64,000 bases of DNA from Topomyia yanbarensis (taxonomy: Eukaryota > Arthropoda > Insecta > Diptera > Culicidae), in assembly GCF_030247195.1 (NCBI RefSeq), contig NC_080671.1:212702851-212766850 (forward strand). The letters run 5' to 3'. The notes beneath the pieces were generated by a model. That model was not told the origin of the DNA, did not search any database, and worked only from the letters and a program-made list of their open reading frames with translations. Shown here one piece after another: positions 4,870 to 61,454 of this stretch. A program made the position numbers and the translations under genes. The first letter of the stretch is position 1. Each line of letters starts with the position of its first letter.

Positions 4870-6139
4870 GTGTGACGTCTCTTAATTAAATAAGTGAACC
4901 ATGTCTGATAAATGTCAGTATAAATGATTGTCTTGTAAAAATGGAAGTTGATTGTGGGTCCACGGTATCTGTAATGGGCAAAAATCAATACTTTTATTTA
5001 TTTGATAAGCCTTTAAACAAATGCAACAAACAATTACTAGTGGTTAACGGATCAAAGCTGAAAATTGAGGGAGAAACAAATGTTTTGGTTGAGATAAATA
5101 GAATGGAAATCAATTTGAAACTTCTTATTCTTGACATAAATTTTAAATTTATGTCTTTGATGGGCAGAAATTGGTTGGACATTTTCTTTCCTCAATGGAG
5201 GCAAACATTTTCAAATGAAAAGGCGTTTAGCGAACAAATAAATAATATGACAATGCCAAATGGTGGAAATATTATAGATGAAATCAAACAACAGTTTGCA
5301 AAAGTGTTTATAAAGAAATTTTCAACGCATATCAAAGGATATGAGGCAGAATTAGTTTTGAAAAATGATGTGCCCATTTTCGAAAAAGCTTATAGCGTAC
5401 CTTTTAGATTAAGGGATAAAGTGTTAACTTATTTGAATAAACTTGAAATGGAGAAGGTAAAGACCAGTGAGTGGGCTTCACCAGTGATTGTGGTTATGAA
5501 GATGACCAAATCAGGCTTGTGATTGATTGTAAAGTATCAATTAACAAAGTTTTATTGTCCAATACTTACCCATTGCCGGTAGCATCCGATTTATTTGCTA
5601 AACTGGCCAATTGCAAAGTTTTTTGTTCTTTAGACCTTCAGGGTGCGTATACTCAAGTTGCTTTAACTGAAAGGTCAAAAAAATCATGCTCATCAATACT
5701 ATTAAAGGCCTGTTTACATACAATCGTTTACCACAGGGTGCATCTTCTAGTGCATCAATTTTCCAACAAATTATGGACCGAATTTTGGATGGCATTGATG
5801 GAGTATTTGTTTATCTTGACGACGTTTTAATAGCAGGGAAAGACCTTAATGATTGTCGTAACAAATTGGTTTTAGTTTTAGAAAGGCTTTCAAAGGCAAA
5901 TATCAAGGTAAACATGGAGAAATGCAAATTTTTCGTTTCTGAGTTAAATTATTTGGGGCACAGAATTGGGGAGAAGGGGTTAATGCCTTGCCCAGACAAA
6001 TTATCTACTATCCAGAGAGCAAAGGTTCCCAAAAGTGTAAATGAACTGAAATCTTATTTAGGGTTAATAAATTATTACAACAGATTTGTGTCTCATATGT
6101 CTTCCAAATTGTTTTACTTGTACAATTTGTTGAAAAAAA
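4870..6139 (+). pseudogene. Ty3/gypsy element A, 5' part: protease and reverse transcriptase
   Basis: A remnant zinc-knuckle-like stretch (SDKCQYK...CKN, broken by a stop) precedes the protease. The protease contains VDCGSTVSVM, where the usual catalytic D-S/T-G triad reads D-C-G, and later LLILDINFKFMSLMGRNWL. RT follows in three frames: AYSVPFRL and SEWASPVIVV up to 5520; DCKVSINKV, YPLPV and FCSLDLQGAYTQVAL from 5530; then LPQGASSSASIFQQIMD and the catalytic VYLDDVL from 5686. Two single-base frameshifts (near 5505 and 5685) and the altered protease triad mean it is dead. The RT ends at LYNLLKK, where the histone unit begins. No gag or 5' LTR remains. Lineage possibly Mag-like. Confidence 0.85.
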
Positions 6140-6413
6140 GAGGGGTGGGTAATGTCAGAGACATAACCGGAGTGAAGTAGAATACACTTTAGACCGGTAA
6201 ATTCTGATCTGGAATAAGCAATTTCTATGCGATTTTGTCGACTTTAACACATTCATAGTTTATTTGGAGTATTTTTGGAATTATCAAGTTGACAATTTGC
6301 AACATTCTTTGAAAATATTGTTGAACTTTTATGAATGAAGGCACGCAAACGAGCGTTTGACCGTCGTCCTACTACCAGCATCAGAGAAGTAGCAGATCAG
6401 CATTTTTCGCTAC

Positions 6414-6890
6414 ATGACCTGTACCAAACAAACCGCTCGTAAGTCCACCGGAGGAAAGGCTCCCCGCAAGCAGTTGGCAACAGCCCCCTGGCAACCCTAT
6501 ACCATCATATGGAGTTTGACAGCGACCGACATATATGGGGCGTTATAGCTATAAAGCCCCAAACAACGAATTATGTTCGGCACTATGCTCGATATTCAAG
6601 CATTCCACACGACGTTTTGCATCTGGTGGGATGATTTAATAATTTAATTTAGTCGACATTTTGTAACTAAATACAGCTTCTAATCATTCGGTTCAAAATC
6701 AATGTTTTGCCTTTCATGGCAGTGATGCTGGCTGTACAGAGACGTCGTCCTTGACAGGGGCTGGTTGGCAACGAAGGCCGTGTAAAAGTGCCCCAGTCAC
6801 GGTTGGCGTTAAGAGCCTCATCGCTACCGAACAGAAACAGTCGCCCTGCGAAAAATTCACAGCTATCAGAAATCGAGCGGGCCTAAATTG
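6414..6890 (+). pseudogene. Histone H3 pseudogene, interrupted by a MITE
   Basis: From ATG 6414 the reading is TKQTARKSTGGKAPRKQLA after a short altered start (MTC instead of MAR), the H3 N-terminal tail with its modifiable lysines. At 6480 the H3 stops at a 283-bp insertion and resumes at 6764 with QLATKA, a stop, then PHRYR and TVALR, and finally an IHSYQKS block equivalent to IRRYQKS. The family is about 136 residues; here the sequence ends at roughly residue 60, and the histone fold core is missing. Stops occur in the KSAPATGG stretch. It is not functional. It points towards the minus-strand H2B remnant, in convergent orientation. Confidence 0.9.
6473..6771. mobile_element. hAT-like MITE with 8-bp target duplication
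   Basis: The insert runs 6481-6763 (283 bp). It begins CAGCCCCCTG and ends CAGGGGCTG, an imperfect terminal inverted repeat with CAG/CTG ends. It is flanked on both sides by GTTGGCAA (6473-6480 and 6764-6771), an exact 8-bp duplication of H3 codons. An 8-bp duplication with CAG ends is the hallmark of the hAT superfamily. No coding capacity. The same insertion exists at the equivalent place in copy 2. Confidence 0.88.
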
Positions 6891-7468
6891 TGACCCAAAA
6901 TAAACCACAAACCAACAAGTTGTTTGCAGGACCAGCCAATTATAAAGTATTATTATTATAAATGAAATTTTCCATTGCCTTACAACCTCCCTCCCCCTTT
7001 CCACCCGGCTTGAATAACTATCAATCTTGATGATGCTGTGCGGCGGGGGCACTAGTTTTTATTATGGTGGAAAATTTAGGTTTGCGCGTTTTTCCCAAAA
7101 GTTTTTTGGCTGTGCTGTTTTCAAGGAAGTTGTAGTTGAATTCAAAATAAAATAGTTTATTTCTATTGTCAGAGATGGACCTTCCAACGAAAACTAGTTT
7201 GGCTCGCTTGGAATCGAATTGTATGGACCAACCACTGCTTTCACAAAATCTGTTATTTTCAGTAATTGAACATTCTACATTTTTGTAAATTGAATCATTA
7301 CACTAACCTGTCTACAAATCACACAAATAACTTTTTTATTTTGTGCCATTCTACTTGAAAACGAAGATATTGTTCACAAGTGGCTCACTTACCATCCAAC
7401 GCTCTTGGCAAGCCACTTTCTGATGCTTGTAATAAAATTTCAATTCGATTCTTTGTCGATAAATTGAT

Positions 7469-7484
7469 GGCCCTGAAAAGCGCC
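7469..7484 (-). terminator. Degenerate histone 3' stem-loop of H2B relic
   Basis: Minus-strand GGCGCTTTTCAGGGCC. It matches the replication-dependent histone mRNA stem-loop except for one base in the 5' arm that breaks one pair. It lies about 25 bases past the H2B stop codon in the H2B direction. Confidence 0.8.
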
Positions 7485-7508
7485 TGTTGTTTGGACAGTG
7501 TTCGGAAT

Positions 7509-7692
7509 TTACTTGGAGCTGGTGTATATGGTAACAGTTTTGGTGCCATCTGGGACGGCGTGCTTGGCCAACTCTTCTGACAGCAGCAAACGGACGGCGG
7601 TTTGAATTTTGCGGGAGATGCTGCAAACGAACTGCTGCATGCTGATGCTGCAAACGAACTGATCGTGAACAACAGCATGCTGAGTTTTTATA
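7509..7692 (-). pseudogene. Histone H2B pseudogene (promoter joined to C-terminal third)
   Basis: On the minus strand 7619-7509 encodes 36 residues starting [13 protein letters not shown] and ending YTSSK then a stop, colinear with the H2B C-terminus (alpha-C helix, AVxxGTKxVTxYTSSK). The first two thirds of H2B are absent. A TATAAAAA box sits only 66 bases upstream (minus strand, 7692-7685), so the promoter region has been fused to the last 36 codons. The intervening stretch contains a short TTCGTTTGCAGCATC repeat, which may mark the deletion point. A long minus-strand ORF over this region is only a frame shadow. Confidence 0.88.
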
Positions 7693-8087
7693 CCTGACTA
7701 CAGCACAATGTAAGCTCGTCCTTTTTTGTGTTGTCCTCAATATGTGTTCTTCGTAGCTCCACCCCTTTGTTGCTCGACCACATATTTTTGATAAAGAACA
7801 AATTTGAAATTGTGTTTCCAATACGGAGGTTATCGAACACTCAGGGTAAAAAGAGTAATCTAATACGGCACCTTGGTAAAATGTTTGAGAATTGAAACCT
7901 TTTTTGAATGCGCCTAGTAAACACGAAACTGTAAACAAACACACAAATGATAACTTTTAATTTTGTGTCATTCTACGTGAAATCTACGATATTGTTCACA
8001 AGTAGCTCACTTGCCATCGAACGCTCTTGGCAAGCTACTTTCGGATGCTTGTAATAACAAAATTTCAATTCGATTCTTTGTTGATAA

Positions 8088-8274
8088 ATGGCCCGTACCA
8101 AACATACCGCTCGTAAGTCCACCGGAGGAAAGCCTCCCCGCAAGCAGTAAGCAACGAAGGCCGTGTGAAAGTGCCCCAGTCACGGTTGGCGTTAGGAATC
8201 CTCATCACTACTGAACAGAAACTGTCGCCCTGCGAGATATTCACAGCTATCAGCAATCGAGCAGGCCTAAATTG
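8088..8274 (+). pseudogene. Histone H3 pseudogene, second
   Basis: ATG at 8088 starts MARTKHTARKSTGGKPPRKQ (Q5 to H, A15 to P), then an in-frame stop followed by ATKA, another stop, and a shifted continuation through TVALRD and IHSYQQS. It lacks the MITE seen in the first H3 and ends near residue 60. The sequence just upstream (about 7980-8087) is a copy of H2B 3' flank rather than an H3 promoter: the two are joined at ATGGCCC, shared by the H2B stem-loop and the H3 start codon. Confidence 0.9.
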
Positions 8275-8991
8275 TGACCCAAAATAAACCACAAACCAAC
8301 AAGTTATTTTCAGGACCAGCCAATTATATTCCAGTAAGATATAAATGAAATTTTCGTTTTCCATTGCCTTACAACCTCTTTCCTCCCGGCTTGAATTACT
8401 ATCAATCTTGATGATGCTGTGCGGCTGGGCACAGGCAGTTTCCATTATAGTGGAAAATTTAGGTTTGCGCGTTTTTCCCAAAAGTTTTTTAGCTGTGCTG
8501 TTTTCAAGGAAGTTGTAGTTGAATTCAAAATAAAATAGCTTACTTCTATTGTCAGAGGTGGACCTTCCAACGAAAACTAGTCTGGTTCGCTTGGAATCGA
8601 ATTGTATGGACCAACAACTGCTTTCACAAAATCCGTTATTTCAGTAATTGTACATTCCACAGAATTAGTCACAACTATTTCCAATCAGCGCAAAAATCGA
8701 AGGTTTTCATTCAATACAACAGAAGATTTTCCCGTTTGAAAAAACAGGCAGCATTCTGGCCGAAAATTTTGAAACGGAGCACCTATATCGAAACGTTAGA
8801 AAACGTTCGATTTTTGTAAATTGAATCATTACACTAAACTGTCTGTAAATCACAAATAACTTTTGATTTTGTGCCATTCTTGTGAAAGCGACGGTATTGT
8901 TCACAAGTGGCTCACTTACCATCCAACGCTCTTGACAAGCTGATGCTTGTAATAACAAAACTTCAATTTCATTCTTTGTCGATACATTGAT

Positions 8992-9007
8992 GGCCCTGAA
9001 AAGGGCC
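8992..9007 (-). terminator. Histone 3' stem-loop (H2B relic 2)
   Basis: Minus strand reads GGCCCTTTTCAGGGCC, a perfect 6-bp stem with TTTC loop, the replication-dependent histone processing signal. An AAAGAAT segment follows 18 bases downstream and may be the histone downstream element. Confidence 0.9.
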
Positions 9008-9031
9008 TTTTGTTTGGACAGTGTTCGAAAT

Positions 9032-9215
9032 TTACTTGGTGCTGGTGTATATGGTAACAGTTTTGGTGCCATCGAAGACGGCGTGCTTGGCCAACTCTTC
9101 TGACAGCAGCAAACGGACGGCGGTTTGAATTTTGCGGGAGATGCTGCAAACGAACTGCTGTATGCTGATGCTGGAAACGAACTGAGCGTGAGCAACAGCA
9201 TGCTGAGTTTTTATA
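9032..9215 (-). pseudogene. Histone H2B pseudogene, second copy
   Basis: Same structure as the first: TATAAAAA box (minus, 9215-9208), about 66 bases, then [13 protein letters not shown]...YTSTK and stop (9142-9032). The C-terminal 36 codons are open but the rest of H2B is missing. Its stem-loop at 8992-9007 is perfect, unlike that of the first H2B relic. The two relics share the promoter-to-C-terminus junction, so they arose by duplication after the deletion. Confidence 0.88.
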
Positions 9216-9598
9216 CCTGACTACAGCACAATGTAAGCTCATCCTTTTTTGTATTGTCCTCAATATGTGTTCGTCGTAGCTCCACCCCTTGGTTGGTCGA
9301 CCACATATTTTTGATAAAGAACAAAATTGAAATTGTGTTTCCACTACGGAGATTATCGAACACTCAGGGTAAAGAGAGTAATGTAATACGGCACCTTGGT
9401 AAAATGTTTGAGAATTGAAACCTTTTTTGCATGCGCCTAGTAAAAATGTTTTCCACTTCACTCCAGTTTGTTTCTGACCATATTTGCAATTTGCGTACTG
9501 AAATACATCATAATTTAGGGTTTAACCCAAATAGCTCTCCAAGGAGAAACAGTCCATGACACAGAAAATGCAAACTTATTCTTTGAAATGATTTTGGT

Positions 9599-9614
9599 GG
9601 CCCTGAAAAGGGCC
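9599..9614 (-). terminator. Histone 3' stem-loop (H4 relic)
   Basis: Minus strand reads GGCCCTTTTCAGGGCC, identical to the H2B one, 33 bases after the H4 stop codon, again followed by a CAAAGAAT segment. Confidence 0.9.
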
Positions 9615-9647
9615 TTTTTTATAATGATACAAGTGAGTTCTACCTTT

Positions 9648-9896
9648 TCAACTTCCAAATCCATACAAAGTGCGTCCCTGCCGCTTCAGAGTATAGATGA
9701 CATTCATTGCGGTTTTGCGCTTGGCGTGTTCAGTGTAGGTCACGGCATCTCGGATGACATTTTCCTGCACACCATCAGCATTCGTAGATTAAATCGGAGA
9801 TGCATTTTACACCACCACGATGAGCCAGACGCCAAATGGCGGATTTTGTGATTCCCTGGATTTTATCACGAAGAACCTTGCGATGACGCTTGATAC
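9648..9896 (-). pseudogene. Histone H4 pseudogene
   Basis: Minus strand from 9896: [18 protein letters not shown], then [10 protein letters not shown], a frameshift and stop in the GLIYEETRGVLK region, then [16 protein letters not shown] and [12 protein letters not shown], stop. This is H4 from about residue 15 to the end (family length 103). The N-terminal GRGKGGKGLGKGG tail is missing, two residues are lost after AKRKT, and several core residues differ. A TATATATA box lies about 100 bases upstream (minus, 10006-9999). Not functional. Confidence 0.9.
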
Positions 9897-9998
9897 GGGA
9901 ACGCAAACATGATACCGCTCATTGTACCGTCCGGACGAACATGTTGCTCGTGTGGTAAGCGAGCACCTACTGATACAAAACAAGCTCGCGTGACCTGT

Positions 9999-10006
9999 AT
10001 ATATAA
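9999..10006 (-). promoter_or_regulatory. TATA box of H4 relic
   Basis: TATATATA on the minus strand upstream of the H4 relic, in the position expected of a histone gene promoter. Downstream of it the H4 start codon and N-terminal tail have been lost. Confidence 0.5.
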
Positions 10007-10322
10007 TATTCCCGTATGTAATGAAACGCTTACATGCCCCTTTTTGACGGCTCTGCGTGGGATATGCTGGCAAATTGCGCATTTTCCTCGCTGTTTCCGA
10101 AGGATTTTTTTAAAAATCCTAGTTTTGGTTTATTTATAGTAGTCGTACTAATTACGAAATTTAATACGAAATACGTGCACAAATTTACGATCAGATAGTG
10201 CAAAAATATTGCGATTTCGTCGAGTAGAACGGAAGATATTCGCATTTCAAACCTGGGAAAATTTCTCAACTGAAATTTTTGAAACGGGACCCCATATTGA
10301 AACGTTAGAAGTATTCTACTTC

Positions 10323-12028
10323 AAAAACTGTTAAATTTGTTTGGGACGACAATTGTCAAAGAGCCTTTGAAGATAGTAAACAAGCCTTAGTTTTAGCCAA
10401 TATTTTGGAATTTTATGATCCGAAGAAAGAAATAATAGTAGTAACAGATGCTTCAGGCTATGGTCTGGGAGGAGTGATCGTTACAAGACTCCAAAGGTAC
10501 ATACTGGAGGTTTCCATATATAATTTTGAAATCAGATACAGGCCATCGGCAAAAATAGGAAATGCGGATTTTTGTTCGCGATTTCCTTTAGGACAGGAAG
10601 TTCCCAGTGGATTAGACCATGATTTTGTAAGGAGTATAAACTTCAGCAAAGATTTTCCAATTAATTCTGTCATGATTGCCAAAGGGACAATGGAAGATAT
10701 GTTTTTACAACAGATAATAACATTTATGCGGGATGGCTGGCCAAAAAAGTTAGACAAACGCTTTATGGACGTTATTGCCAATCAAAATGATTTGGAAATT
10801 ATTGATGGATGCATACTGTATCAAGACAGAGTGGTTATTCCACAACAAATGCAAACCGGAATTCTTAAGCTTTTGCATGCCAATCATGCAGGAATAGTTA
10901 AGATGAAACATTTGGCCAGAAGACAAGTGTACTGGTTTGGGATAAACAAGGACATTGAAGAGTATGTATCTTTTTGTGAAGTTTGCGGAAGCATGATAAT
11001 AGTGCCAAAAACAAAGATTTTGTCTCATTGGACACCTACTACAAAACCTTTTAGTCGGATCCATTTTTCTAACCACACTTTTCTACTGATAGTAGATTCA
11101 TATTCAAAGTGGTTGGAGGTAGAATGGATGAAGAAAGGCACGGATTGTGCGAAAGTTTTAACGAAGTTAGTAGGTTACTTTGCAAGATTTGGATTACCAG
11201 ACGTTTTGGTATCGGACGGTGGTCCTCCATTCAATTCTATTTCGTTTATAACCTTTCTTGAAAAACAGGGGATTAAGGTTCTAAAAAGTCCTCCCTATAA
11301 TCCGTCCAGCAATGGGCAGGCAGAAAGGTTGGTATGAACCACAAAAGATGTTATGAAAAAGTTTTTATTAGAGCCGGATTTAGTGGATATTGAATTGGAG
11401 GATCAGATTAATTTGTTTTTAATGGAATAGGAATAGTATAGTGACGAGTCACGGGCAATTCCCCAGTGACAAAATATTTTGTTATAAACCAAAGACTATT
11501 TTGGATTTGGTAAATCCAAAAAAGTCTTATAAAAACAATTTGCTGGTACCAAATACCCCAGGTGAAGAAAAGAACGAAGCAGATTCGTTAAATAAAAACA
11601 AACAATCAAATGATTGGTTAAACGATCTGACAGAAGGGGATTTGGTATGGTATAAAACCCATAACATTCATCTACCTAATAAATGGGTTAAGGCAACATT
11701 CTTAAAGAAATTCTCTGTTAACACATTTCAGATAAGTGTTGGAAGCGCAACAATAATGGCGCACAGCGCACAGCTTAGGAGCTGGCATCATGAAGAACTT
11801 CAGCCGAGGCCTAACATGCTAATCAAGCCCGGCGCTCGAAATGATTCCGGAGATGGACAACATGCTGGATACAGCACTGATGAAGAGCCTTTTAGGGGAT
11901 TCCCTGAGGTTCGGGCGAAGGCCGGAAATAGGAAGCGTAACGCGTCTTCGGCGAACTTGCCGATAGAGTGTCTGCGGCGTTCTAAAAGGGTTCGTTATAA
12001 AAATACGAATCCTGATTACTTATATTAG
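10323..12028 (+). pseudogene. Ty3/gypsy element A, 3' part: RNase H, integrase, tail
   Basis: Resumes the interrupted protein with TVKFVWDDNCQRAFEDSK, the RT-RNase H connection, then VTDASGYGLGGVI. RNase H is shortened: GGVI runs straight into a late RLQRY segment and NADFCSRFP, so the middle is deleted. Integrase keeps its zinc region (LLHANHAG...FCEVCG), IVDSYSKW, SDGGPPFNS and NPSSNGQAERL, but the HxDFAGP segment holding the first catalytic Asp is replaced by HFSNH. A stop follows at 11335. The open frame 11441-12028 is the integrase C-terminal region (GDLVWYKTHN) ending RRSKRVRYKNTNPDYLY. Non-functional. Confidence 0.85.
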
Positions 12029-13394: not shown

Positions 13395-14499
13395 CAGGCC
13401 CGATGAGAGAGGGGGTCAGCCGGGGCAATTGCCCCGGGGCCCGGATCGTATTTAGGGGCCCGCGGTTTTACCCGGAAGATGGGCGAAAATGTATTCACAA
13501 AAGAGCAATAAAAATGGTGATTTCTTTGTAATTATTCATTTTATTAAATAGTCATATAATGAAAGCGGAAAAAATCGAAAGACATTTTAATTTAATAACT
13601 TGAGAATTCGAACTCCTGTTGTGGATACCAGAACTTTATTTGATATTTGACTTTTTTTTAAAAAACAAACTTTCGTAAGGGAGTTGTCTACTTTATGTAC
13701 TAGATCAAAAAAGCCGAGTTTTATTGTTTGAATCAACGGAATACGCGCCGAACAGGAATGCAAGCGCACGGACGTATCCGTCCTCTTCTGCGTTCGATTC
13801 TTTGTTGGTGGTACCGGTTGTTGATTTGGAGATACTGAGAACGATTTTTATTGAATGAATTTTTGTTCCTGTAAGACCCGTAAATCTTGGTTTTGAAGCT
13901 TTTTGTGGGTTGCCACAAGGAAAGTATCTATTGTTTACGGTTATAGTGGGCGGACTTTTCTAAGCTACTTCTGTGCAATGTTTTCCGTGGTGCAGTGTCT
14001 TTTTGCAGAATTTGCGCATATGAATTTGCCCTGCGTTCATAACCAATGTTGTCTGATGAGAGGTTACATTTTTTTATTAATAGCCCGCCTCTTACCCCCA
14101 CACCAAAAGCTCACAAACGGAGCCCCCTGGAAGTGGACACATCAGTTCTCAGCGTACAAAAAAAGGTCAGCACAACAAAACAAAGTTACGAATCGCGGAA
14201 ACGCTGAGAACAAAAAAAAAGAAAAGATGGGTGGGTAATGTCAGAGACATAACCGGAGTGAAGTAGAATACACTTTAGACCGGTAAATTCTGATCTGGAA
14301 TAAGCAATTTCTATGCGATTTTGTCGACTTTAACACATTCATAGTTTATTTGGAGTATTTTTGGAATTATCAAGTTGACAATTTGCAACATTCTTTGAAA
14401 ATATTGTTGAACTTTTATGAATGAAGGCACGCAAACGAGCGTTTGACCGTCGTCCTACTACCAGCATCAGAGAAGTAGCAGATCAGCATTTTTCGCTAC

Positions 14500-14976
14500 A
14501 TGACCTGTACCAAACAAACCGCTCGTAAGTCCACCGGAGGAAAGGCTCCCCGCAAGCAGTTGGCAACAGCCCCCTGGCAACCCTATACCATCATATGGAG
14601 TTTGACAGCGACCGACATATATGGGGCGTTATAGCTATAAAGCCCCAAACAAAGAATTATGTTCGGCACTATGCTCGATATTCAAGCATTCCACACGACG
14701 TTTTGCATCTGGTGGGATGATTTAATAATTTAATTTAGTCGACATTTTGTAACTAAATACAGCTTCTAATCATTCGGTTCAAAATCAATGTTTTGCCTTT
14801 CATGGCAGTGATGCTGGCTGTACAGAGACGTCGTCCTTGACAGGGGCTGGTTGGCAACGAAGGCCGTGTAAAAGTGCCCCAGTCACGGTTGGCGTTAAGA
14901 GCCTCATCGCTACCGAACAGAAACAGTCGCCCTGCGAAAAATTCACAGCTATCAGAAATCGAGCGGGCCTAAATTG
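14500..14976 (+). pseudogene. Histone H3 pseudogene with MITE (copy 2)
   Basis: Equivalent of 6414-6890: the H3 tail TKQTARKSTGGKAPRKQLA, the hAT-like MITE at 14567-14849 with GTTGGCAA on both sides, then the rest of the tail and the TVALR/IHSYQKS segment. Same stops as copy 1. Confidence 0.9.
14559..14857. mobile_element. hAT-like MITE (copy 2)
   Basis: Same 283-bp insert and 8-bp GTTGGCAA duplication as in copy 1, at the same H3 codon. It therefore predates the duplication of the whole unit. Confidence 0.88.
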
Positions 14977-15594
14977 TGACCCAAAATAAACCACAAACCA
15001 ACAAGTTGTTTGCAGGACCAGCCAATTATAAAGTATTATTATTATAAATGAAATTTTCCATTGCCTTACAACCTCCCTCCCCCTTTCCACCCGGCTTGAA
15101 TAACTATCAATCTTGATGATGCTGTGCGGCGGGGGCACTAGTTTTTATTATGGTGGAAAATTTAGGTTTGCGCGTTTTTCCCAAAAGTTTTTTGGCTGTG
15201 CTGTTTTCAAGGAAGTTGTAGTTGAATTCAAAATAAAATAGTTTATTTCTATTGTCAGAGATGGACCTTCCAACGAAAACTAGTTTGGCTCGCTTGGAAT
15301 CGAATTGTATGGACCAACCACTGCTTTCACAAAATCTGTTATTTTCAGTAATTGAACATTCTACATTTTTGTAAATTGAATCATTACACTAACCTGTCTA
15401 CAAATCACACAAATAACTTTTTTATTTTGTGCCATTCTACTTGAAAACGAAGATATTGTTCACAAGTGGCTCACTTACCATCCAACGCTCTTGGCAAGCC
15501 ACTTTCTGATGCTTGTAATAAAATTTCAATTCGATTCTTTGTCGATAAATTGATGGCCCTGAAAAGCGCCTGTTGTTTGGACAGTGTTCGGAAT

Positions 15595-15778
15595 TTACTT
15601 GGAGCTGGTGTATATGGTAACAGTTTTGGTGCCATCTGGGACGGCGTGCTTGGCCAACTCTTCTGACAGCAGCAAACGGACGGCGGTTTGAATTTTGCGG
15701 GAGATGCTGCAAACGAACTGCTGCATGCTGATGCTGCAAACGAACTGATCGTGAACAACAGCATGCTGAGTTTTTATA
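15595..15778 (-). pseudogene. Histone H2B pseudogene 1 (copy 2)
   Basis: Equivalent of 7509-7692: TATAAAAA box, then the last 36 H2B codons ending YTSSK. The degenerate stem-loop lies at 15555-15570. Confidence 0.88.
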
Positions 15779-16173
15779 CCTGACTACAGCACAATGTAAG
15801 CTCGTCCTTTTTTGTGTTGTCCTCAATATGTGTTCTTCGTAGCTCCACACCTTTGTTGCTCGACCACATATTTTTGATAAAGAACAAATTTGAAATTGTG
15901 TTTCCAATACGGAGGTTATCGAACACTCAGGGTAAAAAGAGTAATCTAATACGGCACCTTGGTAAAATGTTTGAGAATTGAAACCTTTTTTGAATGCGCC
16001 TAGTAAACACGAAACTGTAAACAAACACACAAATGATAACTTTTAATTTTGTGTCATTCTACGTGAAATCTACGATATTGTTCACAAGTAGCTCACTTGC
16101 CATCGAACGCTCTTGGCAAGCTACTTTCGGATGCTTGTAATAACAAAATTTCAATTCGATTCTTTGTTGATAA

Positions 16174-16360
16174 ATGGCCCGTACCAAACATACCGCTCGT
16201 AAGTCCACCGGAGGAAAGCCTCCCCGCAAGCAGTAAGCAACGAAGGCCGTGTGAAAGTGCCCCAGTCACGGTTGGCGTTAGGAATCCTCATCACTACTGA
16301 ACAGAAACTGTCGCCCTGCGAGATATTCACAGCTATCAGCAATCGAGCAGGCCTAAATTG
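16174..16360 (+). pseudogene. Histone H3 pseudogene 2 (copy 2)
   Basis: Equivalent of 8088-8274, with the same MARTKHTARKSTGGKPPRKQ start followed by a stop and the same ATGGCCC junction to H2B 3' flank. Confidence 0.9.
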
Positions 16361-17117
16361 TGACCCAAAATAAACCACAAACCAACAAGTTATTTTCAGG
16401 ACCAGCCAATTATATTCCAGTAAGATATAAATGAAATTTTCGTTTTCCATTGCCTTACAACCTCTTTCCTCCCGGCTTGAATTACTATCAATCTTGATGA
16501 TGCTGTGCGGCTGGGCACAGGCAGTTTCCATTATAGTGGAAAATTTAGGTTTGCGCGTTTTTCCCAAAAGTTTTTTAGCTGTGCTGTTTTCAAGGAAGTT
16601 GTAGTTGAATTCAAAATAAAATAGCTTACTTCTATTGTCAGAGGTGGACCTTCCAACGAAAACTAGTCTGGTTCGCTTGGAATCGAATTGTATGGACCAA
16701 CAACTGCTTTCACAAAATCCGTTATTTCAGTAATTGTACATTCCACAGAATTAGTCACAACTATTTCCAATCAGCGCAAAAATCGAAGGTTTTCATTCAA
16801 TACAACAGAAGATTTTCACGTTTGAAAAAACAGGCAGCATTCTGGCCGAAAATTTTGAAACGGAGCACCTATATCGAAACGTTAGAAAACGTTCGATTTT
16901 TGTAAATTGAATCATTACACTAAACTGTCTGTAAATCACAAATAACTTTTGATTTTGTGCCATTCTTGTGAAAGCGACGGTATTGTTCACAAGTGGCTCA
17001 CTTACCATCCAACGCTCTTGACAAGCTGATGCTTGTTATAACAAAACTTCAATTTCATTCTTTGTCGATACATTGATGGCCCTGAAAAGGGCCTTTTGTT
17101 TGGACAGTGTTCGAAAT

Positions 17118-17301
17118 TTACTTGGTGTTGGTGTATATGGTAACAGTTTTGGTGCCATCGAAGACGGCGTGCTTGGCCAACTCTTCTGACAGCAGCAAAC
17201 GGACGGCGGTTTGAATTTTGCGGGAGATGCTGCAAACGAACTGCTGTATGCTGATGCTGGAAACGAACTGAGCGTGAGCAACAGCATGCTGAGTTTTTAT
17301 A
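17118..17301 (-). pseudogene. Histone H2B pseudogene 2 (copy 2)
   Basis: Equivalent of 9032-9215, with the perfect stem-loop GGCCCTTTTCAGGGCC at 17078-17093 on the minus strand. Confidence 0.88.
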
Positions 17302-17673
17302 CCTGACTACAGCACAATGTAAGCTCATCCTTTTTTGTATTGTCCTCAATATGTGTTCGTCGTAGCTCCACCCCTTGGTTGGTCGACCACATATTTTTGA
17401 TAAAGAACAAAATTGAAATTGTGTTTCCACTACGGAGATTATCGAACACTCAGGGTAAAGAGAGTAATGTAATACGGCACCTTGGTAAAATGTTTGAGAA
17501 TTGAAACCTTTTTTGCATGCGCCTAGTAAAAATGTTTTCCACTTCACTCCAGTTTGTTTCTGACCATATTTGCAATTTGCGTACTGAAATAAATCATTTA
17601 CCCAAATAGCTCTCCAAGGAGAAACAGTCCATGACACAGAAAATGCAAACTTATTCTTTGAAATGATTTTGGT

Positions 17674-17971
17674 GGCCCTGAAAAGGGCCTTTTTTATAAT
17701 GATACAAGTGAGTTCTACCTTTTCAACTTCCAAATCCATACAAAGTGCGTCCCTGCCGCTTCAGAGTATAGACGACATTCATTGCGGTTTTGCGCTTGGC
17801 GTGTTCAGTGTAGGTCACGGCATCTCGGATGACATTTTCCTGCACACCATCAGCATTCGTAGATTAAATCGGAGATGCATTTTACACCACCACGATGAGC
17901 CAGACGCCAAATGGCGGATTTTGTGATTCCCTGGATTTTATCACGAAGAACCTTGCGATGACGCTTGATAC
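17674..17971 (-). pseudogene. Histone H4 pseudogene with 3' stem-loop (copy 2)
   Basis: Equivalent of 9599-9896. The stem-loop is at 17674-17689 and the H4 reading at 17971-17723, with the same missing N-terminus and frameshift. One silent-looking base differs (GACGAC versus GATGAC near 17773). Confidence 0.9.
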
Positions 17972-18479
17972 GGGAACGCAAACATGATACCGCTCATTGT
18001 ACCGTCCGGACGAACATGTTGCTCGTGTGGTAAGCGAGCACCTACTGATACAAAACAAGCTCGCGTGACCTGTATATATAATATTCCCGTATGTAATGAA
18101 ACGCTTACATGCCCCTTTTTGACGGCTCTGCGTGGGATATGCTGGCAAATTGCGCATTTTCCTCGCTGTTTCCGAAGGATTTTTTAAAAATCCTAGTTTT
18201 GGTTTATTTATAGTAGTCGTACTAATTACGAAATTTAATACGAAATACGTGCACAAATTTACGATCAGATAGTGCAAAAATATTGCGATTTCGTCGAGTA
18301 GAACGGAAGATATTCGCATTTCAAACCTGGGAAAATTTCTCAACTGAAATTTTTGAAACGGGACCCCATATTGAAACGTTAGAAGTATTCTACTTCAAAA
18401 CAATACGAGACCGACAAAACACAAAATTTGACAAGAAGCTACGGCGAGTACCCAGCGGAAAAGAATCCTTTTAAGGGTC

Positions 18480-19620
18480 CCATCGTAGCTTTGCAGGAAG
18501 CTCATAATAATTTAAATTTATTTATAACTAATTGCTAGAAAAAATGCATTTATCAATTGTTTTTATTAAAAAATGTTAACCAATTATAGCTAAAGGAATA
18601 AGCTCGATTGGTGGTGAACGAAGTTTATATTAAAAATTCTCCTATTTTATTTTTTTAAATTAGTTTCAATTTTGCTTGGAAACGAGTGCGACATGTTATT
18701 TGCTTTAAATCAGTAGGAAGCTGGTTGAATAACTTAGGTCCGATGAAAGAAATGCGTCTTTGACCAAGGTTCGTGTATACTCTGGAGTATAATAAATGAT
18801 TGGCTTGTCTAGTGCTGTGAGCTCGAATGCCTGTTGTAAATTCTAGATTATTATGAGCAATAGTATTATGCAAAGCATTGTGGATGTATATTATTGTTTG
18901 GTGGTTAGTCAACCCAAGCAAAGGTAAAATGTTATGGGCATTATTATTGTATAACAAAATAGTAGGGTACATAAATGTTTTTTTATAAATAATTTTAAGA
19001 CATCTGTTTTGAAGCGTTTGTAGCTTTTTCAGATTCGAGATACTGGCACGGCCCCACACAGATACAAGGTAGTTCAGCAATGAGTGGATGTGCGCATAAT
19101 AAAATTTTAGAAGTACATGCTGGGGAACAAAAGAGCATACTTTACGCATAGCCCCACATAACGATGCAACTTTTCTCTCTATAGATGTTATATGCTCAAT
19201 CCAGGAGAGTGTGGGGTCTAAGTGAAGTCCTAAATATTTGAAGCAGTTAGTTTCCTGAATTACAGACTGTCCCATTCTTGGGTCTGGATGCACGCCTATA
19301 GCTCTTCTAGATGAACGAAACAGCATATATTTAGTTTTTGATAGGTTCAAGGAAAGAAGGTTTTCGTTGAAATACGTCGTTAGTGTTTTTAAATCCGATT
19401 CAATGTCGCGTACAATATCATGGCAGTTGTTGTTAGGGTAGAACAACGCTGTGTCATCCGCGAAAAGACGAGGAGTCCCTTTTAACCCGAGTCTACCTAG
19501 GTCATTGATATACAATAAAAATAACAGTGGCCCAATATTACTGCCTTGAGATTGAGCACCTTCTGTACTTTACGCAAGTTGTTTAATTTCTCGAATAGCT
19601 GGTCTTATACAACTTGTCTA
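18480..19620 (-). pseudogene. 5'-truncated non-LTR retrotransposon (RT C-terminal part)
   Basis: The minus-strand open frame 19515-18655 reads MYINDLGRLGLKG, then the catalytic RLFADDTALFY, NLSKTKYMLF, CFKYLGLHLD, and after the RT a thumb-like region with YAHIHSLLNYLVSVWG and KKLQTLQNRCLKIIY. Just upstream, out of the annotated start but in frame, QGSNIGPLLFLLYINDL supplies the conserved QG motif. The endonuclease and the first RT motifs are missing, as expected of target-primed 5' truncation. The LQTLQNR block and lack of RNase H suggest the CR1/L2/Rex1 side of the tree; clade not certain. It sits inside the hAT-like shell. Confidence 0.8.
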
Positions 19621-46870: not shown

Positions 46871-47240
46871 ACGTATCGTGTAAATTGTACTTTATAGCGC
46901 ATCAATGTACGAATATAAAAACAAATTCCGTGCTGGACAAGTGTGAATGCTCGCACATGAAATGCATGAAAGAAAATTGGTGTCCGTGCACGGTACTGAA
47001 CTGTCACTGAAACGGATTGGATAGATTGTCGCTGGCTGGGTTTTCTAGCTGTTAACTGCAACCAGAATACTTCAGAAAAATATATGAGGGCTGAATTCTT
47101 AAATGTAATAAACAAAATGTTTATGATTGAGACCTTGTGTGATTAAATTATGATCGACCGAAAATAAAAGTGGAAAGGACAGAACATGCTTTGAAAAATC
47201 CGCTTCAAATATATTTAAATGTAAACACCGGATATAAACT

Positions 47241-48841
47241 TGTGACCTGTGATTTCTTAGGTCACAATATCGTCGCTTTGGTCACTGAGCCCAGCTTGTA
47301 TATATTTGTAAATATTGTTATTTTTTTTTTTGTCGTATAAATAAATAACAGTGTACGGTCTATCTCGTGTATTTGACGACGCCTGTTCTTTGCTTATACT
47401 TTAAAATTATTGTTCGTAAATGTCTAAGTAGAATTTAAACGTCAAACCATTGCTACTCCGTGCTTGCATGTTTGAGTTACGTTTAAGTTCTGCTTAATAG
47501 CCCAGGTTGGTGTCAAACGTAGGTTTTGTTATTTATTTGTTCAGAGATTTATTTAATTTTTGTCTATTTATTTATTTATTTTTATATCTATTTATTCATA
47601 TATTTATTTATTCGCTTATTTATTTATTTATATTTGTTATTAATTTTGCTTGTTTATTATTCATTTTGTTATTATATTTTTTTGTTATAATTGTTCAATA
47701 TTTAAAAAAAAATAATCAAGGAAACAAGTACCGCACATTAAATATTCTTTGTATGCTTTTGTACTAAAAATACTAAAAATATTTCGTGACACCAACCAAA
47801 ACGATAAAATTTTTGTAAATGTCAACCGTCATCGTCCTGTCATCTCATCATCACCGTCATCAAATGCGGGGTGGGATGCGAGGAGGCGCGGTGGGTATAT
47901 TTTGGAAAACGGACAGGGCAAGGATAAAATCTACCGCGAAAAAGGAATGCGGTCTCTAATAGTTAACCGGCCCGGAGGAGTGAAGACCCGCAGCAGCGAT
48001 AGTCACCGACCACAAAGTGACCGCGCGTTTCGTTGAAAGTTTTCGGTATTTGTGCCAGTCGATCCTTAGGATCTAATTTCCCGCCGTTCAGAACCGCCAC
48101 ACGAACGCAAAGTTTTGTTCGGCCAGTCGAGTGGGATAAGTGTGGTTACCGGTTTTTATAGTACTACAGAAGTACGAGTACGTCGCGAGTGCAACAAAAG
48201 GTCAGTGTTTGGCGAAGTCAAAGAACGCCGTTGAAGACACCATTCCCTAAGTACCGGTAGGGTTTTGGTGGTAGTGACCGTAAAAGCTAAAAATCCCACT
48301 CGATTTAGTGTTAGACACTCGTATTTTAAAAGTGCGCATTGTACCACTCCCCGGGCCCCGTAGTGAAACGCAGGCCTCCGCTACGAATAGGCCGAGTTGC
48401 TGCTTCATCTGGAGTCCCCCGTCGCCATCGTCCGTCTGTTCTTGCACCACCATCGAAGCCCATCCCGCATCCAGCCTGAAGAAAGTCGACCAACGATCAT
48501 CACGGCCGCAACGGTATCGCCAGGAGAAGGTTTTGGTGAATAAAAGTGCGCAAGTAAAAATTCAAAAATATTTTCTGTTTGTTTTCAAAAGAATAATTAA
48601 TAATAAATTACAAGTGTAAGGTCTCTATATACAAGTTGTGTCGTCCATTTTGTTTATAGTGTAGTCCTTTTTGGTACTTGTTTCCGCCGAAAATTATTTA
48701 CGATTCGCTCAGTGACCATAGTGTGGGAAGAAAAGTCCGCCCAGTGTGAATTTCTCCAGGACACAATAGTGAAACGACCCTAATAGCTGGTGAGTGAGCC
48801 CCACCACCACAATAAGAACGTTACGAAAGCAATACGTAACA
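47241..48841 (+). repeat. 5' LTR of element B (1601 bp)
   Basis: Begins TGTGACCTGTGATTTC, whose start includes a GTGACC/GGTCAC inverted pair, and ends ACGTAACA. It includes an ATTTATTT-rich tract (47520-47640). It differs from the 3' LTR by about ten scattered substitutions plus a few short indels (for example AAACGTCAAACCATTGC versus AAACGTACCATTAC, and GGTGAGTGAGCCCC versus GGTGAGTACAGTGTGGCCCC). Confidence 0.93.
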
Positions 48842-48843
48842 AT

Positions 48844-54390: not shown

Positions 54391-55417
54391 CTAGTTCTCC
54401 GATCCATCGCACAGCACAGTGTCAGCCAACTCTCCGTCCTCCTGAATCCTCCACCGATCTCAAAAAACGGTGCAAACTTCGACGTTCAATCTAAAACAAA
54501 ACAAAAAAACATAATTAGCAACCAAAAATACTTACCAACATCACGAATCATCCTATTTTTCATCACTACATAAACAATCAGCGTTAGTCAGCTGAGTATG
54601 AGTAGCTGTGACAGATCGGATAATAGACAACCTGACGACAGGGTTGTGCTGGGTTACGACGGGGTTACATTTGCCCGCCGCCAGTTTTAAGTCGACTTTA
54701 CACTCTAAGCGTGAATGGTTTAATTCTGCGTAACTTCATCTAGTTTTCTCCCGCGTGTCGAGAGAGTAAAAGAAGTTCGCAATGAGTTAACCATTTCACA
54801 AAAGTAATAGTCTTTCCGACTCTTGAAAAAGAGTCCGGTAAAGCACAAATTTAAATTTAGGGACCCCTAGCATAATTAAAAGTTAGTGTTTAGTGTGAGT
54901 GTAAATGAAGAGGAATGAAAGGCTAGCAAATTGAATTCTGAGTGAGTGTGTGCGGTATGTAAGCGGTAGTGTTGGATGTTTCGTCCAAGGATAGCCCTTG
55001 TGACGGTAATGGTAGCAGAAAGAAATGTCAAATTCCGTCTGATTTCTTTCTGGCAATTTTCCGCCATTTGAAGCGTATCCGATCAATAATTCTACTCAGC
55101 AAATGCAGCAACGGCTTTTATTCTGACGCATTATAGACAATTTCGACAGTGAAACTTTCACAGTTGTTTTGGGATTGATGGATGGATTGAATCGTACCTG
55201 ATTGTGACAGCTAAATCGGTGAGTGTGCGAGACTAAAAACGGGCAGGCTCACTTCCTCAGAGTCACGTAATTTCGTGGGACAGATTCCTCTGGCCTTTGG
55301 AAAAATCATTCCACGAAATTAAAACTGGCACTCGGGAAGAAGTAGTCGCGTTAGAAGTCGGCATTCATTCGAAAAAAAAACCATTTGGGTTTTTTTTTTA
55401 CCCGAGTCGGGGAAAAT
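54391..55417 (+). other. Noncoding region between pol and 3' LTR
   Basis: About 1 kb with no sustained frame; no env. It contains two similar CACGAAAT/ATTTCGTGG segments (55266-55320) forming an imperfect inverted repeat. Just before the LTR is ACCCGAGTCGGGGAAAAT, whose GGGGAAAA is the likely polypurine tract. Confidence 0.6.
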
Positions 55418-57019
55418 TGTGACCTGTGATTTCTTAGGTCACAATATCGTCGCTTTGGTCACTGAGCCCAGCTTGCATATATTTGTAAATATTGTTATTT
55501 TTTTTGTCGTATAAATAAATAACAGTGTACGGTCTATCTCGTGTATTTGACGACGCCTGTTCTTTGCTTATACTTTAAAATTATTGTTCGTAAATGTCTA
55601 AGTAGAATTTAAACGTACCATTACTACTCCGTGCTTGCATGTTTGAGTTACGTTTAAGTTCTGCTTAATAGCCCAGGTTGGTGTCAAACGTAGGTTTTGT
55701 TATTTATTTGTTCAGAGATTTATTTAATTTTTGTCTATTTATTTATTTATTTTTATATCTATTTATTCATATATTTATTTATTTGCTTATTTATTTATTT
55801 ATATTTGTTATTAATTTTGCTTGTTTATTATTCATTTTGTTATTATATTTTTTTGTTATAATTGTTCAATATTTAAAAAAAAAATAATCAAGGAAACAAG
55901 TACCGCACATTAAATATTCTTTGTATGCTTTTGTACTAAAAATACTAAAAATATTTCGTGACACCAACCAAAACGATAAAATTTTTGTAAATGTCAACCG
56001 TCATCGTCCTGTCATCTCATCATCACCGTCATCAAATGCGGGGTGGGATGCGAGGAGGCGCGGTGGGTATATTTTGGAAAACGGACAGGGCAAGGATAAA
56101 ATCTACCGCGAAAAAGGAATGCGGTCTCTAATAGTTAACCGGCCCGGAGGAGTGAAGACCCGCAGCAGCGATAGTCACCGACCACAAAGTGACCGCGCGT
56201 TTCGTTGAAAGTTTTCGGTATTTGTGCCAGTCGATCCTTAGGATCTAATTTCCCGCCGTTCAGAACCGCCACACGAACGCAAAGTTTTGTTCGGCCAGTC
56301 GAGTGAGATAAGTGTGGTTACCGGTTTTTATAGTACTACAGAAGTACGAGTACGTCGCGAGTGCAACAAAAGGTCAGTGTTTGGCGAAGTCAAAGAACGC
56401 CGTTGAAGACACCATTCCCTCAGTACCGGTAGGGTTTTGGTGGTAGTGACCGTAAAAGCTAAAAATCCCACTCGATTTAGTATTAGACACTCGTATTTTA
56501 AAAGTGCGCATTGTACCACTCCCCGGGCCCCGTAGTGAAACGCAGGCCTCTGCTACGAATAGGCCGAGTTGCTGCTTCATCTGGAGTCCCCCGTCGCCAT
56601 CGTCCGTCTGTTCTTGCACCACCATCGAAGCCCATCCCGCATCCAGCCTGAAGAAAGTCGACCAACGATCATCACGGCCGCAACGGTATCGCCAGGAGAA
56701 GGTTTTGGTGAATAAAAGTGCGCAAGTAAAAATTCAAAAATATTTTCTGTTTGTTTTCAAAAGAATAATTAATAATAAATTACAAGTGTAAGGTCTCTAT
56801 ATACAAGTTGTGTCGTCCATTTTGTTTATAGTGTAGTCCTTTTTGGTACTTGTTTCCGCCGAAAATTATTTACGATTCGCTCAGTGACCATAGTGTGGGA
56901 AGAAAAGTCCGCCCAGTGTGAATTTCTCCAGGAGACAATAGTGAAACGACCCTAATAGCTGGTGAGTACAGTGTGGCCCCGCCACCACAATAAGAACGTT
57001 ACGAAAGCAATACGTAACA
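55418..57019 (+). repeat. 3' LTR of element B (1602 bp)
   Basis: Copy of the 5' LTR, starting TGTGACC after the polypurine tract and ending GTAACA, then AACT. Confidence 0.93.
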
Positions 57020-57078
57020 AACTTCAAACATAAAAATCGGACTGGTTCCCTCCTCTGTAAGAGTCGGATAGAACACCT

Positions 57079-60458: not shown

Positions 60459-61454
60459 GGGGCCATGCATAAATGACGTAGCATTTTGGGGGGTAGGGAG
60501 GGTATACCAAATTTGTGACGAAGTGTGACGAGGGGGAGGGTAGGGTCAGAAGTTGTGTGACGTAACATTAAGTTTAAATCCCATTGTTTAGAGAAAACAA
60601 ATTAAATGATCCTCGATTCCCAAGAGAAATAAATTGAAATTCAAACAAGTTGCTTTTGATACGGTTTTTCATGAGGTAAATTTTACGATTCGCGGAATCA
60701 CAAGTTCTCAAAAATACGAAAAGATTTTGAATGCGGATTTAACTTGCTACATTAGTTAGCTTATGTTGATAACTAGTAGACTTAGTTTGGATTCAACCAA
60801 ACAAAATTTAGTAATTTAGATGAACGTATGCTTCTTAGAATCATTGGCAGCTGCAGGATTGTGAACTGAGAGAACTTCTCTTAGTGCTCCCCTTGACATA
60901 TACAATTCATAACAAAACTATCAACACTATATATTTATCATGAAATCTCGACAAACATATGATTACAGCTTAAAAGCCAACTGACAAAATTCTCTTTGAA
61001 GGGAAATTCCGGACAAACCGTTACTCGCCAATCACAGATGTTGGTAGTAAACAAAAGAGAAAAGTTTTCTCTTTTATTAACTGCTATGAACCATGTTTAG
61101 CCAGTAACGGTTTGTCCGGAATTTCCTTTCAAAGAGAGTTTTGACAGTTGGCTTTTAAGCCATAATCATACGTTTGTCGAGAACTGGGCTTATTTTGCAC
61201 GCAATTTGGTGTTATAATGAAAATGTTGATGAAAGTCGTCAAACATTTTGAAAGGACATGTATTTAAAATAATTGAAAAACATATGTAATTTTTTTCATC
61301 TGCCGGCCGCTTGCATGGGACGAGGGGGGGGGGGGTAGGTAAATGCTACGTTATTTACGAGGGGGTGGTTAGAATTTTGTGACCAAATGCTACGAGGGGG
61401 GAGGGAGGGGTCGAAAATCGCTGAAAAAAAGCTACGTCATTTGTGTACGGCCCC
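60459..61454. mobile_element. TIR element of ~1 kb (GGGGCC ends)
   Basis: Left end GGGGCCATGCATAAATGACG(TAGC), right end (GCTA)CGTCATTTGTGTACGGCCCC: about 24 bp inverted with three mismatches. Subterminal GGGGGGTAGGGAGGG tracts on both sides. ATA flanks both ends, possibly a 3-bp duplication. No transposase. A second element is nested inside. Confidence 0.75.
60946..61182. repeat. Nested long inverted repeat (~84-bp arms)
   Basis: The left arm 60946-61030 (TCTCGACAAAC, TTAAAAGCCAACTGACAAAA, GGAAATTCCGGACAAACCGT) is mirrored almost exactly by 61100-61182, with a 69-base loop containing AAAAGAGAAAAGTTTTCTCTTTT. It would fold into a long hairpin. Confidence 0.85.

Follow-up and report, generated by a model that had tools for sequence, protein, structure and literature searches.

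The stretch analysed here, hereafter the window, comprises 64,000 nucleotides of contig NC_080671.1 of the mosquito Topomyia yanbarensis (positions 212,702,851 to 212,766,850, forward strand), and contains two nearly identical units, copy A and copy B, each carrying broken pieces of histone genes. This raises the question of whether a decayed histone cluster has been duplicated in place or travels as part of a mobile element. The initial annotation of the window proposed that a remnant of a histone cluster had been captured by, or had become, a dispersing element. By the data presented below, the unit is very probably a Helentron of the non-autonomous type (HINE) with a cargo of histone fragments, which were captured, decayed, were duplicated inside the element and were spread with it to hundreds of places in the genome.

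Two copies in different surroundings

Alignment of the window against itself revealed 99.5% identity over 4195 columns between 6133-10326 and 14218-18400. Without the flanking A/T runs, copy A occupies 6140-10322 and copy B, as defined by pairwise alignment and reading of the ends, 14226-18396. Both lie on the minus strand, so that the Helentron 5' end of copy A is 10322 and its 3' end 6140. Specifically, copy A starts with GAGGGGTGGGTAATGTC and copy B with GATGGGTGGGTAATGTC, both end in ..GTATTCTACTTC, and A runs are found outside both. The two copies differ at 9 positions, compared with 16-21 for the other pairs in which A or B was included. Near-identity, common outer ends and different surroundings had all been proposed in the initial annotation; the limits coincide with it to the base, and the flanks bear out the third point. 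In fact, copy A splits a gypsy-type pol between its reverse transcriptase and RNase H parts, with open frames on either side: one flank (5671-6135, plus strand) matches RVT_1 (E 4.8e-21) and the other (10327-11337, plus strand) RT_RNaseH_2 (E 9.7e-12), Integrase_H2C2 and rve.

The flanks of copy B differ from those of copy A. They were found again, with the element inside, at another locus (L013; 99-99.5% identity over 200 bp on each side), and the 3' flank also at L030, as judged by eye. Therefore, the host block of copy B has itself been copied, and copy B is no lone insertion. Directly past copy B lies a reverse transcriptase frame of the long interspersed nuclear element type (18655-19569, minus strand; RVT_1, 4.1e-9), whose protein relatives reach 64% identity in the best 120 of 722 matches.

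Dispersal in the genome

A genome search with the first 201 bases of the unit gave 1073 candidates, the best 40 of which (99-100% identity) were read, namely 38 fetched copies and the two copies of the window. The same 3' end was found in all 40, and in 31 the 5' end also fell within the fetched stretch. The distance between the two ends exceeds 3 kb in 27 of these 31 copies, hereafter full copies, and is 2.5-2.8 kb in four short forms. In addition, the genome contains 818 exact matches to the 34-bp end motif (416 + 402), compared with 0 for the reversed control.

According to the initial annotation, many copies with the same ends and distinct flanks would support mobility, and this is the pattern observed: besides the 818 end motifs, the 27 full copies show 24 distinct flank sets. 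Fixed ends at many distinct flanks thus support the inference of a histone remnant captured by a dispersing element. A different account would be that a decayed histone cluster underwent segmental duplication locally, and that each copy is part of a large duplicated block. Three pairs of full copies with common flanks (L011/L027, L013/copy B and L023/L024) fit this view, as do the short copies L036 and L038, whose flanks appear common by eye. The variety of flanks at the same ends, the presence of copies on contigs C1, C2 and C3 and the nesting of one copy in another argue against it, and we consider it highly improbable.

The full copies diverge from their majority sequence by 0.2-3.5%, with 15 of the 27 below 0.5%. 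When 31 copies were placed in a tree, copies A and B fell with L009, L010 and L013 into a group that has support (100/99). Support is lacking (85/0) for a closer union of copy A, copy B and L010, neighbours within ~32 kb on C2, so local hopping can be suggested only tentatively.

Element ends and insertion sites

Read in Helentron orientation, which in the window is the minus strand, the element begins with 2-7 T followed by GAAGTAGAATACTTC. On the 3' side, GTATTCTACTTCA is followed by a 33-nt stretch with the hairpin ATGTC-TCT-GACAT and a final CATC, and then by 4-17 T. The 15-bp 5' subterminal palindromic repeat maps to 10308-10322 in copy A and 18382-18396 in copy B, directly after the T run, and the 13-bp 3' subterminal inverted repeat to 6173-6185 and 14259-14271, 33 nt from the 3' end. 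The 3' terminal hairpin, which has a 5-bp stem, lies 12 nt from the end (6152-6164 and 14238-14250). In the window the T runs bordering copy A read as A runs, at 10323-10327 on the 5' and 6133-6139 on the 3' boundary. The 13-bp inverted-repeat match is longer than the longest one obtained in 2000 base shuffles (11 bp).

The 5' border consists of 2-7 T in all 31 readable copies, with at least 4 T in 30 and 2-5 T in 24 of them, and the 3' border of 4-17 T in all 40; a few of these copies have common flanks and do not count as independent. One copy, L032, is nested in another copy of the element in the opposite direction. Its target, CACTAG-T5-ATTATGG, is present unfilled in copy A at 7050, and the filled site has T5 at one border and T4 at the other, with no duplication beyond T.

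Terminal inverted repeats (TIRs) and a target duplication of fixed length characterise cut-and-paste transposons and the related miniature inverted-repeat transposable elements (MITEs). An element of this type, carrying histone fragments in the Pack-TIR manner, would account for an inverted repeat near both ends and for many copies with fixed ends. Here, instead, the repeats are subterminal and unequally placed, one beside the 5' T run and the other 33 nt from the 3' end, nothing beyond T is duplicated at the target, and the 3' tip is common to a predicted Rep/helicase element described below. A TIR-type origin is accordingly very unlikely.

The Rep/helicase relative and the 3' hairpin would also suit a canonical Helitron. 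Such elements begin with 5' TC, end with CTRR 3' and insert between A and T, whereas the element described here has the ends T-GAAG..CATC-T and is inserted in T runs. Moreover, paired subterminal repeats are the published mark of Helentrons (Thomas et al. 2014, PMC4067079). We therefore give scarcely any credence to a canonical Helitron. The plan of a Helentron or HINE agrees with the palindromic repeat next to the 5' T run (published as 12-15 bp, ~2-4 nt from the 5' end) and with the position of the 3' hairpin (according to PMC4067079, a palindrome of 5-10 bp ~8-35 bp from the 3' end). T-run borders of variable length, with no other target duplication, likewise agree with the published insertion of Helentrons in TT or T-rich sites. 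In 9 of the open frames of copy A, no Pfam match rose above cut-off and no transposition protein was recognised.

Histone cargo and its source

The cargo was located by tblastn, using histone proteins as queries. As the initial annotation had stated, both copies contain five decayed histone remnants and histone-type stem-loops; the remnants derive from three genes, H3 (twice), H2B (twice) and H4 (once). On the plus strand, the first H3 fragment (6414-6878) is interrupted, with codons 1-23 at 6414-6482 and 18-59 at 6756-6878 (copy B 14500-14568 and 14842-14964), and the second (8088-8262; copy B 16174-16348) retains codons 1-25 and 28-59, with stops. The other three pieces lie on the minus strand. 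Two are C-terminal fragments of H2B, both with codons 89-123, at 7512-7616 (copy B 15598-15702) and 9035-9139 (copy B 17121-17225), and the former was also recognised by its match to histone chains in PDB (single-domain E 2.5e-10). The third is an H4 fragment at 9651-9891 (copy B 17726-17966), in which codons 17-53 and 64-103 remain, with deletions and a frame shift. Each minus-strand piece is followed by a histone 3' stem-loop on the same strand: at 7469-7484 (copy B 15555), with the same single mismatch in both copies, at 8992-9007 (copy B 17078) and at 9599-9614 (copy B 17674). By tblastn, H2A had no match within the unit, and its best match in the window falls outside it (E 0.91). An internal unit of ~1.15 kb (6768-7921) recurs at 8151-8661 and 8810-9444 with 89-92% identity.

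Histone matches were present in all 38 fetched copies. The H4 piece shows a gap and a frame shift at about codons 53-63 and, further on, a net loss of two codons, lesions that are common to the majority sequence and to the four short copies; therefore, part of the decay predates the spread. One short copy, L035, lacks the duplication, and its H3 codons 1-59 are unbroken but for a frame shift near codon 26. Differences among copies by codon position are 31/11/10 in H4 and 29/6/14 in H3 (cells, not events), with no third-position excess.

In a host H4 search restricted to the best 150 of 1984 candidates, genes with intact frames were found, among the matches listed, at ~155.6, 164.5 and 177.6 Mb on C1 and at ~128.9 and 146.7 Mb on C3, plus one at C3:81.0 Mb. 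Many intact-frame H4 genes are also present on the small contigs C603, C73, C271 and C130, with a spacing of ~6.8 kb over much of C603; the C1 and C3 clusters are of other H4 types than these. When five host H4 genes were compared with the captured block, the closest was that at C1:155.6 Mb, with 83.0% identity over 348 columns that take in the 3' untranslated region (UTR) and the stem-loop; the other four reached 81.3, 77.3, 73.0 and 73.0%. Without gaps, captured H4 and the C1:155.6 Mb gene differ at 24 of 241 positions, distributed over the codon positions as 10/3/11. The match crosses the 3' UTR and extends ~40 bases past the host stem-loop; the host H3-H4 spacer is not included.

This last point bears on the possibility that histone mRNAs were copied by a retroelement and that the resulting processed pseudogenes were later joined. 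The stem-loops retained by the H2B and H4 pieces are what a histone mRNA would leave. Histone mRNAs, however, end before the point ~40 bases beyond the stem-loop to which the H4 homology reaches (H4 and H3 being the pieces compared with host DNA), so the captured H4 likely came from DNA rather than mRNA. In addition, pieces of three genes occur in both orientations. Overall, we assign a retrocopy origin very little probability.

A Rep/helicase relative and the weight of the evidence

Twenty further end-motif places were read, a non-random sample taken from the first 100 listed and lying entirely on contig C1. H3 pieces are present at 15 of them. Among the other five is L072, where we observed matches to DUF6570 (2.2e-14), Helitron_like_N (1.5e-22) and PIF1 (4.3e-19) in a single orientation, and where the last 54 bp equal the 3' end of the histone element at 98.1%. 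The domain matches thus show that the 3' tip is common to an element of the genome with predicted Rep and helicase domains. Its coding region is decayed, with stops and a DDE_Tnp_4 element inside. The latter is Harbinger-like (L072:7332-7805, 3.1e-11) and lies on the opposite strand, within the Rep/helicase Helentron.

Several observations weigh against the reading of the unit as a histone-bearing HINE. At the five places without H3 pieces the motif belongs to other elements, which have only the last 50-61 bp in common with the unit (L061 was judged on 184 bases). The figure of 818 is consequently not the number of histone-bearing copies, which we estimate at about 600 (15/20 of 818), with a wide margin. 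As regards L072, only weak matches to endonuclease were obtained (E 0.049 and 0.041, under the Pfam cut-offs), nothing past the last 54 bp resembles the histone element convincingly, and no 5' repeat of the element's kind was found in 10 kb of L072. PMC4067079 gives more than 95% identity between Culex HINEs and their autonomous partner; hence L072 is a relative and not a demonstrated direct partner.

Further points of this kind concern the insertion sites and the cargo. The exact empty sites number just one, that of the nested L032, whose flanks match the element at 99.5% on one side and at 87%, with a gap, on the other. At a distance of 33 nt to CATC, or 37 if four T are counted, the 3' repeat is just below the 38-60 given in PMC4067079. 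When 9 frames of copy A were translated, Pfam detected no core-histone domain in them, which the shortness and broken state of the pieces presumably explain; the sole histone-like match there, PAF (E 0.098), and a weak match to Endonuclease_7 are under cut-off and were not used. The histone identity of the pieces as predicted here depends on pairwise matches. Lastly, differences among copies in H2B are distributed by codon position as 14/23/42 (cells, not events), a third-position excess that, taken alone, would fit some constraint.

Proposed mechanism

On balance, a HINE with histone cargo remains the very probable reading, and its history may be pictured as follows. An ancestor would have captured pieces of a histone array, namely H4 from codon 17 onwards together with its 3' UTR and stem-loop, the stem-loop-bearing 3' end of H2B and, oppositely oriented to these, the 5' part of H3. 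There was probably a single capture, followed by internal deletion and duplication. Decay and internal duplication would have come after capture, and the broken form would then have spread, about half of the full copies probably doing so recently. Movement would be of the rolling-circle type and in trans, driven presumably by the Rep/helicase of Helentrons with the common 3' tip. By analogy with the family, a nick would be made at the T-rich boundary, rolling-circle copying would begin at the 5' subterminal repeat and end at the 3' hairpin, and the copy would be inserted into a T run. The histone pieces appear to be passengers without function; some function of the stem-loops is conceivable.

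A related arrangement was observed at L010 (C2:212689165-212694365), where, as with L048 and L049, the histone HINE seems to sit inside a different Helentron-like element. A 3' tip with the same hairpin plan and another subterminal repeat lies nearby. The flanks hold H3 pieces, codons 71-123 on one side and 8-106 on the other, with stem-loops GGTTCTGAAAAGAACC / GGTCCTGAAAAGAACC, and a 1469-bp part of the histone unit is present nearby a second time at 99.8%. These surroundings may stem from a second capture, or the element there may be a relative that is more complete.

Other repeats in the window

Direct repeats of 1.6 kb, possibly a pair of long terminal repeats, lie at 47236-48842 and 55413-57020 (98.5% identical, starts 8.2 kb apart). 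The segment 43805-43983 matches itself at 100% in both directions and is thus a simple repeat of a palindromic unit. At 60946-61182, a 237-bp inverted self-match (84%) indicates a fold-back or MITE-like structure.

Comparison with known elements

Histone genes were not known as transposon cargo in mosquitoes according to the initial annotation; here it has to be corrected. Thomas et al. (2014, PMC4067079) described Helentron-Cq-32A of Culex quinquefasciatus, a coding element in eight copies with fragments of H4 (84% over 244 bp to the putative parental gene) and of an H15-type (H1) histone. As far as that description goes, the two elements have in common palindromic subterminal repeats, a 3' stem-loop, T-rich insertion, decayed histone fragments including H4, and multiple copies. 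Unlike the Culex element, with its H4 and H1-type pieces, the window element carries H3 twice, H2B twice and H4 together with stem-loops (H1 was not searched for here); it also has no recognisable transposition protein, and its end motif occurs 818 times. The comparison is by description only, and one shared or two separate captures are both possible.

The HINEs of the mite Metaseiulus and of Culex, and DINE-1 of Drosophila, are likewise non-autonomous, with the same end plan and T-rich insertion, and some have internal or tandem repeats, as in the window element (PMC4067079). Apart from examples annotated earlier, that paper reports gene fragments solely in Helentrons of Culex and Phytophthora, and in none of the mite families. 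A search of the open-licence literature by title and opening of the abstract found no further published case of a histone-bearing Helentron.

A precedent for the window element thus exists, but the window element is far more abundant than the published Culex case. To that single case of eight copies it adds another of much greater size, with pieces of three core histones and their stem-loops in probably hundreds of copies. It makes testable the attraction of Helentrons by histone arrays and the S-phase transcription of dispersed stem-loops, and it is a warning for annotation that histone-like matches in such genomes can be transposon passengers. As a tentative and rather doubtful extension, histone arrays might repeatedly feed Helentrons in this insect group, with the window family, the L010 element and the Culex element as separate captures, and the dispersed histone-type 3' ends might yield S-phase stem-loop RNAs that aid the elements or disturb histone mRNA control.

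The gene-capturing Helitrons of maize and bats have termini and a target other than those of the window element. They are likewise rolling-circle elements and move gene fragments in high copy; PMC4067079 mentions them.

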